Shown: positions 18,168 to 28,442 of the stretch, piece after piece | Layout: the number at the start of each line of letters is the position of its first letter | Numbering within the stretch: position 1 is the stretch's first letter | Source: Pedobacter sp. L105 | Lineage (GTDB): Bacteria > Bacteroidota > Bacteroidia > Sphingobacteriales > Sphingobacteriaceae | Assembly (NCBI RefSeq): GCF_009765875.1 | Contig: NZ_LMUP01000004.1 | Location: forward strand, 524,056-588,055 | Length of the DNA: 64,000 bases | Direction: 5' to 3' | Notes under the pieces: model-generated | Told to the model about the DNA's origin: nothing | What the model saw: the letters and a program-made list of their open reading frames with translations, nothing else | The model's database searches: none | Translations under genes and position numbers: made by a program

Positions 18168-19415
18168 TTATTTAAAAGCTCCGGCCATTAATTCCCTTTC
18201 AGCCCTAGGGATACCAATCCTTTTGGCCACTTTTTCCCAGCTATTCACGGCCGACCGGACCTCTTCAATAATCTTGTCCATTTGCTTGTCATCAAGCTTA
18301 AAATATTCTCCAACACTTTTTGCCAAATCATAACTCAGTGCATTATTATTGGCATCTATATTTAAAGCAAGACCATTTTTATCAATAGAAGGATTGATGT
18401 CAAATGCGGGTGATAATACCCACCCCTTATCGCTCAATAAAAATCCATGATTGCGCAGGTGATCATCTGTATTGGATATCGATATATTAAATATAATCCT
18501 TCGCCAGAGCTGATGTAAATCTTTTTCTATAGCAGCTCCTCTAAACTGTATAAACTCTGCCAGATCCAGATAACCTACATTTTCTTCTTTGATCGTATCT
18601 TCATTATGACCTGTCATGGTCATAGCAGAAGAAAAATGTATACGTTCTTTACTTTTACGATCAAACCTTCTGGTGAAAAAAGTATCATGCGGCCCGTGGA
18701 TTTTTTCTATCCGGCATTCCGACATTTCTATACCGGTTTTCAAGGCAAGTTCATAAGCAAGATATTCCCATGCAGCTTTATTGATCGTATCATTTTTAGA
18801 GGGAAACTTGGCGATCCACAGCTCTCCGTTATGATCCAGGATATTAGCCTTAGACCTCGCTCCTCCCAACGAGGAGCCCGGAGATAACAACAGGTTAAGC
18901 CATTTTTCTGAATCTTTGCTGCCCGAATTGTTTTCCAGCATTTTTGCAGCATGCTGCAGCTCCCGGATACTTGTCCAGGGAGGAGTACGATGATCAGGTT
19001 CATTATTCAAAAAAGGTTCTTCAGGATCAAGCTTAAAACGTAAAGCGCCCATTCTTCCTTCATCATTTACACCCAATAAAAAATTGAGCTCATACAAATT
19101 CGGAGAAACTGTCCCACGCTCTGCAGCCCGTTGTGCGGCCTGTCTTTTCATCAATGTGCGGCCCCATGTATCAGGCATTGAATCTATGAACACGTCAAAA
19201 TTTTCTTTGCCATTTGGAAACTGGATTCCAGAATACCACTCAATATCCGGATCCAGTAAAAACTGTTCCTCACTATCAATCCACTCGGCACTATATTCAA
19301 AGCTGAACGTTTTTCTTCCTTTGCCATGATGGGCAGAAAGAATTCCTATGATTTTAGGCAGCTCCATTCCAACCCAATGCGCATATACCCAGATGTCCGT
19401 TTTATCCGCTGCCAT
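18168..19415 (-). CDS. hipA: HipA-family serine/threonine kinase (type II toxin)
   Basis: A 415-residue protein beginning at the ATG at 19415; a GTG lies one codon upstream. HipA_N comes first, then a kinase-like core with SSLGGARSKANI and LWIAKFPSK (ATP-binding). The catalytic Asp lies in ISNTDDHLRNHGF and the metal-binding Asp in LSPAFDINPS. HipA kinases phosphorylate aminoacyl-tRNA synthetases such as GltX, slowing growth. It lies two codons after the hipB stop, forming an antitoxin-first operon. No frame damage is seen and it is likely functional. Confidence 0.93.
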   Translation of the reverse strand: MAADKTDIWVYAHWVGMELPKIIGILSAHHGKGRKTFSFEYSAEWIDSEEQFLLDPDIEWYSGIQFPNGKENFDVFIDSMPDTWGRTLMKRQAAQRAAERGTVSPNLYELNFLLGVNDEGRMGALRFKLDPEEPFLNNEPDHRTPPWTSIRELQHAAKMLENNSGSKDSEKWLNLLLSPGSSLGGARSKANILDHNGELWIAKFPSKNDTINKAAWEYLAYELALKTGIEMSECRIEKIHGPHDTFFTRRFDRKSKERIHFSSAMTMTGHNEDTIKEENVGYLDLAEFIQFRGAAIEKDLHQLWRRIIFNISISNTDDHLRNHGFLLSDKGWVLSPAFDINPSIDKNGLALNIDANNNALSYDLAKSVGEYFKLDDKQMDKIIEEVRSAVNSWEKVAKRIGIPRAERELMAGAFK

Positions 19416-19418
19416 CAC

Positions 19419-19712
19419 TTATTTACCCAATAACTTAAGATCCTGAAGTTTCCTACCAAATAGATCATCTGCCGCTATTTTATACACATCATCCTGAAGG
19501 TTCAATACCCTGAGCACATTGAAATATGCCCCCAGGGATACGCTGGGGCTACCCTTCTCAATGTTCGAGAGGGTACCTCTGTCTATACCTGCACGCTCTG
19601 AAACCTGTAAAGCAGTAAACTTCCTTCTTTTTCTTGCCAGCCTGATGTTCTCTCCTAAAACATCCAGGATTTTCTGATGCTTAGGAAAAATGATATGTTT
19701 TTTGCTTTTCAT
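19419..19712 (-). CDS. hipB: HipB-like XRE-family antitoxin/repressor
   Basis: A 97-residue protein starting at the ATG at 19712 (a longer frame would use an upstream TTG). The HTH_3 domain spans about residues 15-75: LGENIRLARKRRKFTALQVSERAGI, split by the first turn, then TLSNIEKGSPSVSLGAY. HipB binds operator DNA and neutralises HipA. The perfect inverted repeat at 19716-19726/19752-19762 sits just upstream of the start, where autorepression would act. The Lys-rich tail ends with a Leu-rich DLKLLGK. Confidence 0.9.
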   Translation of the reverse strand: MKSKKHIIFPKHQKILDVLGENIRLARKRRKFTALQVSERAGIDRGTLSNIEKGSPSVSLGAYFNVLRVLNLQDDVYKIAADDLFGRKLQDLKLLGK

Positions 19713-19715
19713 GGC

Positions 19716-19762
19716 GCTGTATATTAAGAGCAAAAATAATAAAAATGCAGATAATATACAGC
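19716..19762. promoter_or_regulatory. Inverted-repeat operator upstream of hipB
   Basis: GCTGTATATTA (19716-19726) is the exact reverse complement of TAATATACAGC (19752-19762). The half-sites lie 36 bp apart centre to centre and immediately flank the hipB start region. This geometry fits two HipB dimers or a dimer bridging a promoter, as in E. coli hipBA. The role is inferred from position and symmetry. Confidence 0.75.
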
Positions 19763-22609: not shown

Positions 22610-22618
22610 TTCATATTG

Positions 22619-22651
22619 AACTGCGGTTTGCCTATCTGGTAAACCGCAGTT
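22619..22651 (+). terminator. Terminator hairpin after ychF
   Basis: AACTGCGGTTT (22619-22629) pairs perfectly with AAACCGCAGTT (22641-22651), with an 11-nt loop, ten bases after the ychF stop. A short T-rich stretch follows at 22660-22666. Confidence 0.8.
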
Positions 22652-23375
22652 ATTCAATGTTTTTTGAAAACGATAAAAACATTCGTATTATAGTTTTGTT
22701 ATCTGATAATGAGAACGCTATCTTGCGCTCGAACAGCAATCCCCTGCTGAAAAATAACATCCGTTTATCAATTGCATTTATTTCAAGCACATGAATTGGG
22801 TACCACCCGGGTTACAGTCGGAAACGGTTCGGAAACGGTTCGGAAACGGGTTTGTAGAAAATCCTGTTGAAGCCTAAATGTAGCTTTATTGCAGCCCTAC
22901 CATGTATACCCCATCTGTACCTTATCCGTACTCCATCTATACCCCATGTATACCCCTATGGGTATACATGGGGTATAGTTGGAGTACTTTTCGGGTATAT
23001 TTAGGGTACAGGTGGTAGGACTTCAACAGGAATAAATCAAAGCTTCTGGAAAACTTTCTCTGCATCCGTTTCCGAATCGTTCCCGACCAGGGTCCGGCAA
23101 AAAGTAAATAAGTATTTGGGGATGGAATTAAAAAGGAGACAAGGAATGTAATTTAATTATATTTTTCAACAATTATTGTATTTATTTAAAATAATATTTA
23201 ATTTTATTGGAACACTATTTATTAAAGATCCGACTGTATTTATGAATGTATTAATCCTACGCTGAATTATAATTTGCCGGTATTCGCATTAAGATGATCA
23301 CCAGATAATTTAAAGAGGCGTAATTGAATTGTTAAATAAACAAATAATTAATTATAAACCTAAATTATCAAAAAA
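22652..23375. other. Intergenic region between ychF and DUF6266 genes
   Basis: About 720 bp without a supported gene. Positions 22817-23087 hold the nested palindrome described separately. The rest (22652-22816 and 23088-23375) is AT-rich, especially the last 200 bases, and shows no ORF or tRNA I can support. No clear TAnnTTTG box was found near 23376. Confidence 0.6.
22817..23087. repeat. Large nested imperfect palindrome with internal tandem repeats
   Basis: Several inverted pairs are nested around one centre. Outermost, 22817-22838 matches the reverse complement of 23066-23087 with two mismatches; the left arm holds three 11-bp CGGAAACGGTT units (22819-22851, last one ending GG). Next, TCCTGTTGAAG (22862-22872) pairs with 23021-23031. 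Then CCTACCA (22896-22902) pairs with 23013-23019. The core is 22928-22987: two 28-bp arms with one mismatch around a CTAT loop. The core and flanks repeat a CCATnTATACC theme. A MITE-like element or a long structured RNA are the main options. Confidence 0.8.
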
Positions 23376-24023
23376 ATGGCAAATGTAGTAAGCGGCCCGG
23401 CAACGGGCTATTCAGGAACAGTAGGCGGCGTTACTTATAGTCAGCAACCCAACGGCGCGCCAACCACAGCAAAGCAAAAAAACAAAAAGAGCGACAAGCC
23501 ACTTACGCCAGGTCAGCTATCGGTATGTATGGATACGGCGATCACCGCTGCATTCATCAAATCAATTGAAAACTTCGCTAAAGCTGGTTATGCAATTCAG
23601 GCAAAAAAGGACAGGATGAACCAGCACAATTCTATGGTACGTTATATGCGGGCAACAGCATTAACCGGCGTATATCCTGAACGCAAAATTGATTTCCCTA
23701 GATTACTGGTGAGTAAAGGGGAAATGCCTGCACCAAGAGATGTAACAGTTACAGTAAATGAATTTGGGTTCGTCTTTACCTGGAATCCTGAAACCAATAT
23801 TAAAGCTGTACATTATAGCGATCAGATCATGTTGTTGGCTTATTTCCCGGAGTTAAACTCAGGAGAATCCCATATAGGCGGTGCACAAAGATATATTGGT
23901 AAAGATTTGTTAGCACTAAGTGGTGTTGAACATGGTTATGTAGCAGAAATCTATATTTCATTCATCGCCAATGACCGCAGCAGCGTATCAAATAGTATTT
24001 ATCTTGGACAATTAACCTGGTAA
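23376..24023 (+). CDS. DUF6266 family protein, first copy
   Basis: A 215-residue protein. The N-terminus has the family pattern, GPATGYSGTVGGVTYSQQ followed by a Lys-rich linker (KQKNKKSDKPLTPGQLS), then an alpha-helical middle and a beta-rich C-terminal half with FVFTWNPETN. DUF6266 proteins are common in Bacteroidota, often several per genome, with no known function. There is no signal peptide or membrane segment. The next gene, two bases downstream, is a divergent second member, so the pair is an operon. The large palindrome lies 290 bp upstream. Confidence 0.8.
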   Translation: MANVVSGPATGYSGTVGGVTYSQQPNGAPTTAKQKNKKSDKPLTPGQLSVCMDTAITAAFIKSIENFAKAGYAIQAKKDRMNQHNSMVRYMRATALTGVYPERKIDFPRLLVSKGEMPAPRDVTVTVNEFGFVFTWNPETNIKAVHYSDQIMLLAYFPELNSGESHIGGAQRYIGKDLLALSGVEHGYVAEIYISFIANDRSSVSNSIYLGQLTW

Positions 24024-24025
24024 TT

Positions 24026-24691
24026 ATGGGAATCAGAACGAAAGCCCCTATTATTGGGGATATCAGCGGAAAAGTAGGAACAGTGGTACTGAGTACCTGG
24101 AGAGGGCTAAACATCATAAAAGAAGTTCCATCAACAAGAAAAAATAAAAAAGTACCCGAGAAGGTGGCACAGCAAAATGGTCTTTTCAAGATAGTCAGCC
24201 AGTTTTTGGAATTTTCTGGGAATGATATTATAAAAAGAGGATACCAGCTTCGGAAAAAAGAGAACATGACTGCTTTTAATTTTGCTACTTCTTATCATAT
24301 GCTGAATGCCGTTACAGGTACATTTCCTAACTTTAGTATAGATTTGAGTAAGGTAAAATTTAGCCGTCCGCTTAATTCAACACAGAAAGGATGGAATGCC
24401 GTATTTATCGAGGATGAAAACGGAGATCTGAAAGTAAAATGGGAGCTTAATCCTTTTCCTAAAAAAACTACTCAGCTGGATGACGAGGCTGTTGTAATTT
24501 TTTACAATGCAACACGTGGAAATTTTAGAATAAGTTATGATGTGCAAAGGAGTTCGCTTGGTTATATTTATCCTGTTAAACGTCAGCCGTCATTGGTGGG
24601 ACACGAGATCTTTAGCTGGTTATTTTTTATTTCCGCGGATGGGAAATTGGTCTCAGAGACAACGTATTTGGGTATGCTAAAAATGATTTAA
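24026..24691 (+). CDS. DUF6266 family protein, second copy
   Basis: A 221-residue paralogue of the preceding gene, two bases after its stop. The N-terminal motif is better conserved here: PIIGDISGKVGTVVLSTWRG, then IIKEVPSTRKNKKVP. The pattern of hydrophobic strands later in the protein (WNAVFIEDENGDLKVKWELN; VVIFYNATRGNFRISYD) parallels copy one. The two share architecture but little sequence beyond the first 60 residues, indicating old duplication or independent acquisition. A hairpin at 24754-24803 could end the transcript. Function unknown. Confidence 0.8.
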   Translation: MGIRTKAPIIGDISGKVGTVVLSTWRGLNIIKEVPSTRKNKKVPEKVAQQNGLFKIVSQFLEFSGNDIIKRGYQLRKKENMTAFNFATSYHMLNAVTGTFPNFSIDLSKVKFSRPLNSTQKGWNAVFIEDENGDLKVKWELNPFPKKTTQLDDEAVVIFYNATRGNFRISYDVQRSSLGYIYPVKRQPSLVGHEIFSWLFFISADGKLVSETTYLGMLKMI

Positions 24692-24753
24692 CAAATGAAG
24701 GTTTATTTACGGAAAGATCATTTTTAGCGCAATCTATGTTGTCGTATCTTCAA

Positions 24754-24803
24754 GATTAAGGGTGATATCACGCACAGCGTCGGTGTAGATTTCGCCCTTA
24801 ATC
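24754..24803 (+). terminator. Terminator-like hairpin after the DUF6266 pair
   Basis: GATTAAGGG (24754-24762) pairs perfectly with CCCTTAATC (24795-24803), with further partial pairing inside (TGATATC against GATTTCG). It lies 60 bp after the second DUF6266 stop and before the convergent toxin-antitoxin remnant. There is no strong U run on either side. Confidence 0.55.
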
Positions 24804-24829
24804 ATAAATGAATTAGGTTAAATTGATTA

Positions 24830-25170
24830 TTATTCACCTAATATACCTTCAATTTCCGACTTAAGAAGAGGAAGATGCTGAAAAAAAGATAGACCAAATG
24901 ATTTCATCGGAGACCGTATCATATCCGTGTATGATTCTATTACGAGTGTTCACCATTTGCCTTGTATTGCTTAATGATATATCTGGTTCGACTTGAAGTA
25001 TACGATTCATGGCTTCACCAATGATCTCAATATTACGTTCCACAGCTCTTTTTGTTTTCCCATCCCGTTCGTATATTTCAAATTCAACAGTGTCTTCTTC
25101 AAAAAAAACTTTCAATTTCAACAATTGCGTTTAGCATGTCATAAAGCCAAACTTGTATTTTTTCATCCAT
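24830..25170 (-). pseudogene. hepT: HepT-like HEPN toxin gene with two homopolymer frameshifts
   Basis: Starting at ATG 25170, the protein would read DEKIQVWLYDMLNAIVEI, then SFFEED and on to NTRNRIIHGYD, which contains the RX4HxY ribonuclease motif of HepT, and end in LLKSEIEGILGE. The actual sequence needs two single-base deletions. An A8 run at 25101-25108 should be A7, and an A7 run at 24881-24887 should be A6. As it stands, no full-length product is made. Its start overlaps the end of the mntA remnant. Two +1 slips in homopolymers may be real decay or assembly error. Confidence 0.8.
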
Positions 25171-25462
25171 ATACTAACTTTCGCTGTTTTTCCAATGACC
25201 TTTTAAAGTAAGGATTTTTCAGTGCCTTTTCCTCCAATAGATCAACAGGCCGTTTAAAGATATCCTCCAGAGAAAATTTCAGATTATAATAATTGTTAGC
25301 GTAGTCATTAATTTTAATCTTATCAAAATTGACAATTAGATCAATATCGCTAGAATCTTTAAACTGATCAGTGAGCACTGAGCCAAATGCGTACAATTGA
25401 TCCACATTATATTTAATACAAAGCAGTTGTATATCATTTTAATATTTTTCTAGCAGATTCAT
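25163..25462 (-). pseudogene. mntA: MntA-like nucleotidyltransferase antitoxin with an early nonsense codon
   Basis: The natural start is the ATG at 25462: MNLLEKY, then TAA (25439-25441), then in the same frame NDIQLLCIKYNVDQLYAFGS. The product continues with the minimal-nucleotidyltransferase signature GSX10DXD (GS, then DID in SSDIDLIV) and ends RSLEKQRKLVYG. MntA AMPylates the HepT toxin to silence it. The stop at codon 8 removes the normal start. A GTG at 25405 could begin a version lacking the first helix. Together with the hepT frameshifts this indicates a decaying module. Confidence 0.78.
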
Positions 25463-25601
25463 ACGTTTAAGATCTCTGCACAAAAATACGTTATTTCTAA
25501 TTGAATTCTTATAAAGTGCATCGATTCTATTTCTGACTAAAACTAATTTCAAGTTCCTTGCGGTTATTTTTAAGTGTGCAGGATTAAGACTACTTCTCCG
25601 T

Positions 25602-25748
25602 TTAAGAGCAATAAACAAAAAGCCCCGGATCAGTAGGTCCAGGGATAAGCCCGTCCCACCTTTGATAGACTTCATTTAAGGCAAGCTCATTTTTACTAGC
25701 TATATAAGCAGATGAAATATATTCAGAGGCAACTATTCCGAAGTTCAT
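25602..25748 (-). CDS. Small protein or gene remnant of 48 residues
   Basis: ATG at 25748, TAA at 25604-25602. It has a soluble, balanced composition and the distinctive C-terminus RWDGLIPGPTDPGLFVYCS, which reads like real protein sequence rather than noise. I cannot name the family. It may be the 3' remnant of a longer gene, as it lies between a decayed toxin-antitoxin locus and YceI. The frame at 25439-25675 on the same strand is a shadow of it and of mntA. Confidence 0.4.
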   Translation of the reverse strand: MNFGIVASEYISSAYIASKNELALNEVYQRWDGLIPGPTDPGLFVYCS

Positions 25749-25963
25749 ATTAATATTTGCCCTGTAAAAACATTAAGACTTATACTTGTTCTCTCTATAA
25801 TTGGATATCACATGTTGTGATTTCCATTCTCACAGCCCCCGGCTGAAACAAGAGATCAATTGGAAAGCGCCTGAACAACCTTACACTTTGGCAACCTTAT
25901 TGCCCAGGCATTCGTAACCTAAGCGAACCTGCTATCCAAGTCAGGTTTGCTAAATCCTACGTT

Positions 25964-26488
25964 ATGAAAAAGAACATATTTCCCGCACTGATCACAGCCC
26001 TCATCTGCCTCTCAGCTTTTGCTATTTTTACAGGTAACTGGAAAATAAAAGACAATGAATCACAGGTAAAATTTACCAGTGGAAGAATAAACGGCACCTT
26101 TTCGGGCTTGAAAGCTGATATACAGTTCGACAAAAAACATCCGGAACAGGCAAAAATAGCTGCATCTATAGACGCAGGCACTGTTGCAACCGGGTTTTTC
26201 TTAAAAAACGACCATGCTAAAGATGCTTTAGGGGCCGATAAATATGCAACTATCCGATTTGTAGCTACATCAGTAACAAAAAATGCCGATGCTTTTGATG
26301 CCGTTGGTAAGCTGACCATGAAGGGTGTGACCAAACCGGCTACAATTCATTTTACCTTTGAGGATAAAGAAACGCAGGGCATATTTAAAGGTACTTTTAA
26401 AGTGATCCCTAAAGATTTTGGTATTGACAGAAATGGCACACCAGATCATGTAGACATCGAATTAACAGTACCAGTAACCAAATCCTGA
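25964..26488 (+). CDS. YceI-family periplasmic protein
   Basis: A 174-residue protein with an N-terminal signal or anchor (hydrophobic residues of about 5-20). The YceI lipocalin-like beta-barrel follows: WKIKDNESQVKFTSGRINGT at the start, the family's LKNDHAKDAL and ADKYATIRF segments in the middle, and FKVIPKDFGI plus HVDIELTVPV at the end. YceI proteins bind polyisoprenoid or other amphiphilic molecules in the periplasm. It is a single gene convergent with DinB, four bases apart. Confidence 0.9.
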   Translation: MKKNIFPALITALICLSAFAIFTGNWKIKDNESQVKFTSGRINGTFSGLKADIQFDKKHPEQAKIAASIDAGTVATGFFLKNDHAKDALGADKYATIRFVATSVTKNADAFDAVGKLTMKGVTKPATIHFTFEDKETQGIFKGTFKVIPKDFGIDRNGTPDHVDIELTVPVTKS

Positions 26489-26492
26489 TGAT

Positions 26493-26993
26493 TTATTCCA
26501 TCGCAGCCATTCCCATTGATTCCCACTCTTCTTTAGAAGGGCCGTAGATACCTGGAACAGGTAAACCTACTACACGCATAATAGTGCTCATTTGGCTTCT
26601 GTGATGAGATTCATGACCGATAAGGATAGACAATAGTTTACCTCTTTTCCATTGCTGTCCGTACATATCCAGCATATCTTCGAGTGAAGAATCAGTCCAG
26701 CGGCTAACCACCGCTTTTCCCAGCAATTCTGCGTATTTCTGGTATACAGGGATGATTTCGGCAAAGGTTGACGGAATGGGTTCATCTTTAAGGGCATCCT
26801 GATCAAACAATCCGGCGGCAGAACCCATTTCAGTTAAGGTATGTGTAATATGCCATGCCAGACGTTCAAGACTGCGGACATTTTCACTGACCCTGATCGA
26901 TTTGGTTTCTTCAGTGACCATAGAAAACATCTTTACGGTGTAACCTTGCTCCTCTTTCCACTCCTTAGTGAAATCTTCAATCCTTCTGTACAT
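26493..26993 (-). CDS. DinB-family putative metal-dependent protein
   Basis: A 166-residue four-helix bundle. Three family metal-ligand histidines are placed as expected: AWHITHTL (about 46-50), and IGHESHHRSQMSTIMR near residue 125-140. In the DinB/YfiT superfamily these bind a divalent metal, and members act in bacillithiol transfer or have no assigned role. The C-terminus GIYGPSKEEWE matches Bacteroidota members. It is alone, on the minus strand, with an AT-rich upstream region. Confidence 0.88.
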   Translation of the reverse strand: MYRRIEDFTKEWKEEQGYTVKMFSMVTEETKSIRVSENVRSLERLAWHITHTLTEMGSAAGLFDQDALKDEPIPSTFAEIIPVYQKYAELLGKAVVSRWTDSSLEDMLDMYGQQWKRGKLLSILIGHESHHRSQMSTIMRVVGLPVPGIYGPSKEEWESMGMAAME

Positions 26994-27068
26994 AGCGTTA
27001 TATTTTACCTATAAAAATCAAAAAATATTATAGTATTATCAAAATTTAGAATAATAAAAATTTAGCCT

Positions 27069-28442
27069 TTACAGCAGCACTCCCGTAAGGAACATCACCG
27101 CTACGGAAAAATAAATGATCAGTCCTGTTACGTCTACCAGGGTGGCCACAAAAGGGGCCGATGAAGTTGCCGGATCGGCACCTAGTTTTTTAAGCAATAA
27201 CGGCAGCATAGAACCTGCAAGGGAACCCCATAAAACTACGCCTACCAATGCAACGCCTACGGTAATGCCAATTAACATCCAGTGAGGGCCGTACATATTG
27301 GAAAACAATGTCCATGCAAAGATCCTGATGAAACCAATGGTGCCCAGCACCAGGCCTAGCAGCAAACCTGAGATCAATTCCCTGCGCATCACCCGCCACC
27401 AGTCGCCTATAGTAATTTCTCCCAGTGCCATTGCCTGTATAATTAAAGTAGAAGCTTGTGAACCACTGTTACCCCCACTGGAAATAATCAGCGGGACAAA
27501 CATTGCCAATACCACAGCTTTTGCAATATCTGCTTCAAAATGCGCCATTGCGGTAGCAGTTAGCATTTCTCCCAGAAAAAGTACCACCAGCCAGCCGATA
27601 CGTCTTTTAAACAGGCCAAAGATGGGCATATCCAGATAGGGTTCATCCAGTGCCTGGGTACCCCCTATTTTATGCATATCCTCGGTATATTCCTCATTGG
27701 CTATCCATAGAATATCATCTACGGTGACAATACCGAGTAATACATTACTATCGTCGGTTACCGGCAGGGCAACCCTGTTGTTCATTCTGAACACATTGAT
27801 CGCTTCTTCCTGCGGATCGTTTGCATTGAGTGCGATAGACCTGTTATCGGTCAATTCAACAATGGGTACTTCGGGATTGGCCAGCAGGATTTCCCTGATC
27901 CGTATGTCATCCAGCAAGACGCCATTTTCGTCTATGACATAGATTACATCAATCGTTTCAGAGTCTTTGCCGTAACGGCGGATATGATCCAGAACGTGTT
28001 TAACGGTCCAGTCTTTTTTAACAGCGATATAATCTGGCGTCATTAAACGACCAACGCTATCTTCTTTATAACCTAGCAAAGACAGGGCTTCTACCCTATC
28101 TTTTGCCGGTAATAATATAATGAGTTTTTTTACAGCGTCTCCTTTGAGTTCCGAGAACAGCGAGGTCCTGTCATCGGGAGGGAGCAGGTTGATCAGCTCA
28201 GCAAGCTTTTCTCCGGGAAGTTTTTTAATGATCTTTTCCTGGGTTGGAAAATCCAGGATCCTGAAAACATTAACCGCTCTTTTTACAGATAAGGTATCGA
28301 TAAAAGTAACAGCGTATTGGGGAAGATCATCAATCAGATGTTCTACATCCGAGATATTGAGTGCATCTAAATAATCTTTTAATTCGCCTTCAATGTTACG
28401 CTCAATTAATTCGATAACCTCTTCAATAACCTTTTCTTCCAT
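27069..28442 (-). CDS. mgtE: Magnesium transporter MgtE
   Basis: A 457-residue dimeric inner-membrane Mg2+ channel. Order: an N-terminal superhelical MgtE_N domain (about 10-130, with LLPPDDRTSLFSEL), two CBS domains (about 135-255, GRLMTPDYIAVKK), a connecting helix, then five transmembrane helices with the conserved GNSGSQASTLIIQ pore segment and a late VATLVDVTGLIIYF. Cytosolic Mg2+ bound by the N and CBS domains closes the pore. The length matches the family. No Mg2+ riboswitch is evident in the short upstream region. Confidence 0.95.
   Translation of the reverse strand: MEEKVIEEVIELIERNIEGELKDYLDALNISDVEHLIDDLPQYAVTFIDTLSVKRAVNVFRILDFPTQEKIIKKLPGEKLAELINLLPPDDRTSLFSELKGDAVKKLIILLPAKDRVEALSLLGYKEDSVGRLMTPDYIAVKKDWTVKHVLDHIRRYGKDSETIDVIYVIDENGVLLDDIRIREILLANPEVPIVELTDNRSIALNANDPQEEAINVFRMNNRVALPVTDDSNVLLGIVTVDDILWIANEEYTEDMHKIGGTQALDEPYLDMPIFGLFKRRIGWLVVLFLGEMLTATAMAHFEADIAKAVVLAMFVPLIISSGGNSGSQASTLIIQAMALGEITIGDWWRVMRRELISGLLLGLVLGTIGFIRIFAWTLFSNMYGPHWMLIGITVGVALVGVVLWGSLAGSMLPLLLKKLGADPATSSAPFVATLVDVTGLIIYFSVAVMFLTGVLL

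Follow-up and report, generated by a model that had tools for sequence, protein, structure and literature searches.

REPs, which one account describes as 20-40 bp long (PMC3733652), carry a GT(A/G)G head, and a RAYT gene has inverted REPs on either side of it (PMC2817692). The centromere-like parC sites of plasmids, which ParR binds, consist of 11-bp (R1) or 10-bp (pB171) repeat arrays that stand 5' of the operon and are system-specific in sequence (PMC9426499). The window analysed here, a 64,000-nucleotide stretch of a Pedobacter sp. L105 contig, contains a locus that recalls both. An intergenic palindrome of about 270 nt (22817-23087; whole element 22817-23096, no strand assigned, centre near 22957) precedes two tandem genes, both of which belong to the DUF6266 family (PF19781); the array upstream of them appears to be undescribed.

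The palindrome has two arms of 137 nt (22819-22955 and 22960-23096) that are 70% complementary. Its innermost helix is 27 bp long with one mismatch (22929-22955 with 22960-22986) and, with a 4-nt loop, makes up a core hairpin (22929-22986, no strand assigned) that is evident from both sequence and fold and is common to all four copies in the genome. The RNA folding energy of the palindrome is -137.7 kcal/mol, compared with -70.2 +/- 4.6 for shuffles (z = -14.7). The palindrome reported in the earlier note, with its arms around a single centre, is thus real. The outer left array (22818-22850, plus strand) holds about three CGGAAACGGTT units (Tandem Repeats Finder: period 11, 2.9 copies, 100%), and the outer right array (23066-23087) carries CGGAAACGATT/CGGGAACGATT units on the minus strand, as an inverted repeat 91% complementary to 22817-22838. 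The inner left array (22900-22956, plus strand) has five units with the consensus CCATCTATACC (period 11, 5.2 copies, 73%), in which TAC recurs every 11 nt; the inner right array (22960-23023, minus strand) has the same units on the opposite strand (period 33, or 3 x 11). The earlier note had placed 11-nt tandem units in the outer arm, where they do occur, but they are not restricted to it, since the inner arms consist of 11-nt units of the TACC type as well. Alignment of the four copies from this genome shows that TAC is invariant in each inner unit while the rest is variable.

Besides the window copy, the genome contains three others (L002, L003 and L005), which are 78-83% identical to it across the matched parts, so that the possibility of a unique sequence, raised at the outset, can be dismissed. 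Judging by the neighbouring genes, named by reading their sequence, L002 is flanked by putA and a catalase gene, L003 directly follows a tRNA-Thr gene and L005 follows an acyl-CoA dehydrogenase gene. None of the three adjoins a DUF6266 gene. A strict unit pattern recovered no copies beyond these four in the genome, convergent pairs are not favoured among the genes flanking the palindromes, and the search against phage DNA, phage proteins and plasmids gave no match. Between ychF and mgtE, this genome has about 4.4 kb (22610-27069) that relatives lack and that holds the window copy of the palindrome, the DUF6266 pair, a HEPN/MNT pair and other genes; many relatives have a convergent mgtE-like gene directly after ychF. 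The apparent HEPN/MNT toxin-antitoxin pair (24861-25405, minus strand), 3' of the DUF6266 genes, comprises adjoining ORFs for a HepT-like protein (PF01934) and a Polbeta/NTP_transf_2 nucleotidyltransferase (PF18765/PF01909). Elsewhere in the window, reading of the translations revealed a HipA-kinase-like ORF with an adjacent HTH ORF (18168-19733, minus strand).

The two DUF6266 genes lie on the plus strand and encode proteins of 215 aa (gene 1, 23376-24023; PF19781 E 4.5e-22, 79.0 bits) and 221 aa (gene 2, 24026-24691; E 6.7e-27, 94.7 bits), both exceeding the Pfam gathering cut-off of 23.4 bits. The AlphaFold model of gene 1 has a pLDDT of 95.7, and its C-terminal half matches the FN3 fold with a VIA-align Z of up to 10.4 (residues 116-215, 89 aligned, 2.0 A); on this model, we are confident that the C-terminal domain is FN3-like. 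The N-terminal domain has no Foldseek match in the PDB (best VIA-align Z 3.6), and neither a DNA-binding fold nor a nuclease fold can be recognised in the predicted structure. A sequence search of the PDB yielded a weak FN3 match alone (neogenin, E 0.065), and PHROGs and NCBIfam returned nothing significant for the two proteins. In our literature search DUF6266 was named in no paper, and its function is undescribed. The family is found in 105 of the 145 genomes searched in the genus, and a single genome can hold as many as 20 copies or more. What follows the pair is catalase or unrelated genes. In Pedobacter hartonius (L287, 2001-2645), a relative of gene 1 has two in-frame stops, and the upstream array is absent.

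Upstream arrays are a general feature of DUF6266 loci. We surveyed 71 DUF6266 operons, comprising all listed loci except a few fragments, and scored as arrays a lag of 10 or 11 within 450 nt upstream. In the eight genomes surveyed, which were selected partly for holding arrays, these precede 48 of the 71 operons, compared with 4 of 144 control genes and 2 of 355 shuffles (p = 1.6e-25), and the four positive control genes themselves lie within DUF6266 loci. Lag 11 is dominant (42/71), with lag 22 at 23/71 and lag 10 at 10/71; about one third of the operons have no array within 450 nt upstream. Because of the way the eight genomes were picked, samples from outside them matter. There, with an array called at a lag 10/11 score of at least 21/33, arrays are present at 7 of 10 further Pedobacter DUF6266 loci and, in a class-wide draw, at about 9 of 19; in several other families, DUF6266 genes with high scores mostly have none. 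In another clade, an array stands 5' of DUF6266 in seven genomes, in one of which (G133) this is the sole DUF6266 gene detected; G136 has a second copy. At the level of whole genomes, TAC-type arrays are found in 39 of 72 genomes with DUF6266 and in 5 of 33 without (p = 2e-4); two genomes (G110 and G148) have arrays and no detected DUF6266. Strict TAC-type arrays are concentrated in the subfamily of gene 1 (39-47% identical), at 6 of 9 loci versus 1 of 64 other DUF6266 operons (p = 3e-6), which speaks for co-inheritance. Several gene-linked palindromes precede either a single DUF6266 gene or a tandem pair. The unit sequence varies from one DUF6266 locus to another. A hairpin is found in 26 of 42 arrays of 11-nt units but in only 1 of 7 arrays of 10-nt units, and the two kinds occupy the same position 5' of DUF6266. 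Six operons (L181, L231, L232, L237, L242 and L246) have 10-nt direct arrays that, unlike the 11-nt arrays, are mostly hairpin-free. Of the identities that had been proposed for the palindrome, an intergenic repeat family linked to DUF6266 is therefore the one that the survey bears out, as a pattern that recurs outside the surveyed genomes. In our judgement, the association is statistically secure and firmly established, and the 11-nt (sometimes 10-nt) arrays 5' of DUF6266 in Pedobacter and its relatives apparently represent an undescribed class of DNA element.

Equivalent palindromes with other unit sequences are present in further genomes of the genus, and a loose pattern, in which TAC appears four times 11 nt apart, matches 112 of 399 genomes from the family and is commoner than its reversed control. 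Protein searches returned records from Pedobacter westerhofensis, Pedobacter sp. MC2016-15 and a Sphingobacteriales MAG. In six genomes (G000, G129, G087, G143, G018 and G062), solitary palindromes match a DUF6266-linked palindrome of their own genome. Three species share the gene order putA-palindrome-DUF6266-DUF6266-catalase; in the window's genome, the putA locus has orthologous sequence on either side (about 80% DNA identity) and keeps the palindrome but not the DUF6266 pair. In sequence, the palindrome at this locus resembles the others of its genome more closely than its orthologues, suggesting that palindromes are copied or homogenised inside a genome. Palindromes near rpsL in P. westerhofensis (G018) and in G062 are each missing at the other's orthologous place, and both the number and the sequence of units change fast between orthologous loci. 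In genome G019, five places (L252-L256) carry repeats that are about 500-800 nt long and 88-93% identical and that contain TACTGTCCGGG-type 11-nt units as well as an inner palindrome; a DUF6266 fragment is near one of the five. Two contigs (C249 of G129, at L239, and C5 of G022, at L241) stop just 5' of a DUF6266 gene, as would be the case if assemblies broke at long hairpins.

Periods of 10 and 11 nt both lie near one turn of B-DNA. We consider that the palindrome may well be a cis-acting DNA array, helically phased and bound by protein, that belongs to the DUF6266 pair following it and whose copies disperse or are homogenised within the genome, and we give this interpretation roughly even chances. 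In its favour are the association with DUF6266, the match between solitary and gene-linked copies, the concentration of strict TAC-type arrays in the gene-1 subfamily and the hairpin-free 10-nt arrays; against it stand the DUF6266 model with no recognisable DNA-binding fold, the N-terminal domain that matches nothing in the PDB, the operons with no array and the two array-bearing genomes in which DUF6266 was not detected. The array would be a run of units, one per helical turn, often arranged as two inverted blocks able to form a hairpin or cruciform and placed 100-450 nt 5' of most DUF6266 operons. Unit sequences that are specific to the locus suggest a cognate protein, either DUF6266 itself or a partner, which would align along one face of the helix and bind cooperatively, with the array serving as an operator or as a nucleating site and so possibly affecting DUF6266 expression. 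Gene-free copies of the array would spread to, or be homogenised at, other intergenic sites of the same genome and could persist after the gene pair is lost.

The main rival is a mobile hairpin element of the REP/RAYT or MITE kind, in which a gene-linked master gives rise to solitary, non-autonomous offspring whose spread is driven by DUF6266 or another protein. Several genomes do have linked and solitary cognate copies, the window copy lies in the stretch missing between ychF and mgtE of relatives, and the rpsL palindromes are mutually absent at orthologous places. We nonetheless find this explanation doubtful. The Y1 (HUH) transposase PF01797, detected in 5 of 14 control genomes, is absent in all six genomes searched (G000, G129, G018, G087, G019 and G062), and no nuclease fold is recognised in the FN3-like DUF6266 protein. 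Copy number is low, about 4-12, and the palindrome-free 10-nt arrays stand where the palindromes do. No target-site duplication is evident by eye at the four copies, and in the L009/L257 empty-site comparison the sequences have diverged too far to show a clean one. The outer ends of the element share a TGGTCGG-like sequence, for which no matching IS was identified. The earlier suggestion of a MITE is accordingly not supported, as no target-site duplication, known-IS terminal repeat or cognate transposase was seen, though the presence of solitary copies differs between species.

A long structured RNA, the array being transcribed into an A-form hairpin that is bound by DUF6266 or that acts as its leader or antisense regulator, would fit the strong folding of the palindrome. 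One turn of the A-form helix is 11 bp, equal to the unit length. Compensated pair changes number 39 against about 23 in shuffles (summed over six hairpin comparisons), and the four copies have 7 double-change pairs against 0-1 when slid. Compensatory changes between arms, which the earlier note had proposed looking for, are thus in modest excess but are not arm-specific, and since arms from different copies pair as well as a copy's own arms, they are weak evidence of selection on pairing. The same equivalence of chimeric arms favours a DNA site over an RNA. So do the hairpin-free 10-nt arrays, which do not fold and hold the same position, making a long-hairpin RNA unnecessary. The long palindromes, moreover, lie about 400 nt from the gene on its upstream side, and the element belongs to no Rfam family (Rfam 15 gave only miRNA look-alikes, all below threshold). 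We regard an RNA as unlikely. Alternatively, the array could be a functionless by-product, hairpin-prone intergenic DNA near DUF6266 that expands by 11-nt slippage. The rapid turnover of unit number and sequence between orthologous loci and the DUF6266 loci lacking an array are what this would produce, but arrays from several bacterial families agree in their two periods, in their position and in the gene family that they accompany, and TAC is retained in every unit despite the variable rest, making a by-product highly improbable.

Returning to the phased protein-binding array, we tentatively propose, as a possibility held with less than even confidence, that DUF6266 loci are a new class of two-part locus, in which one FN3-type protein, or often two, goes with a locus-specific helical-turn array that can be spread or homogenised without a classical transposase. 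For a family of undescribed function, the array is a first handle, namely a candidate DNA partner whose sequence is specific to the locus. If binding is confirmed, this would add a new type of locus that pairs a repeat array with a protein, it would account for the dispersed long palindromes in Sphingobacteriaceae, and the spread of palindromic repeats with a non-transposase partner would become testable.

Among described systems, the locus resembles REP/RAYT in having dispersed intergenic palindromes, one of them gene-linked and matched by solitary copies elsewhere in that genome. It differs in that the element is about 270 nt long, is made of 11-nt units and was seen on the upstream side only, and in that no Y1 transposase was found in the six genomes searched, and on these grounds we rejected a REP/RAYT identity. 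Like MITEs, the palindromes are short, non-coding, intergenic, lineage-specific and few in copy number; unlike MITEs, they are built of helical-turn units and tied to DUF6266, and neither a target-site duplication nor a transposase end was recognised in them. With parC they share tandem 10- or 11-bp repeats that stand 5' of an operon and are locus-specific. ParM or ParR genes are adjacent at none of the loci examined, where the neighbours are DUF6266 genes. By analogy, the DUF6266 locus may be pictured as working in the manner of ParR sites, yet it is not a ParMRC locus: its arrays are chromosomal and often form inverted blocks, and their putative partner is DUF6266.
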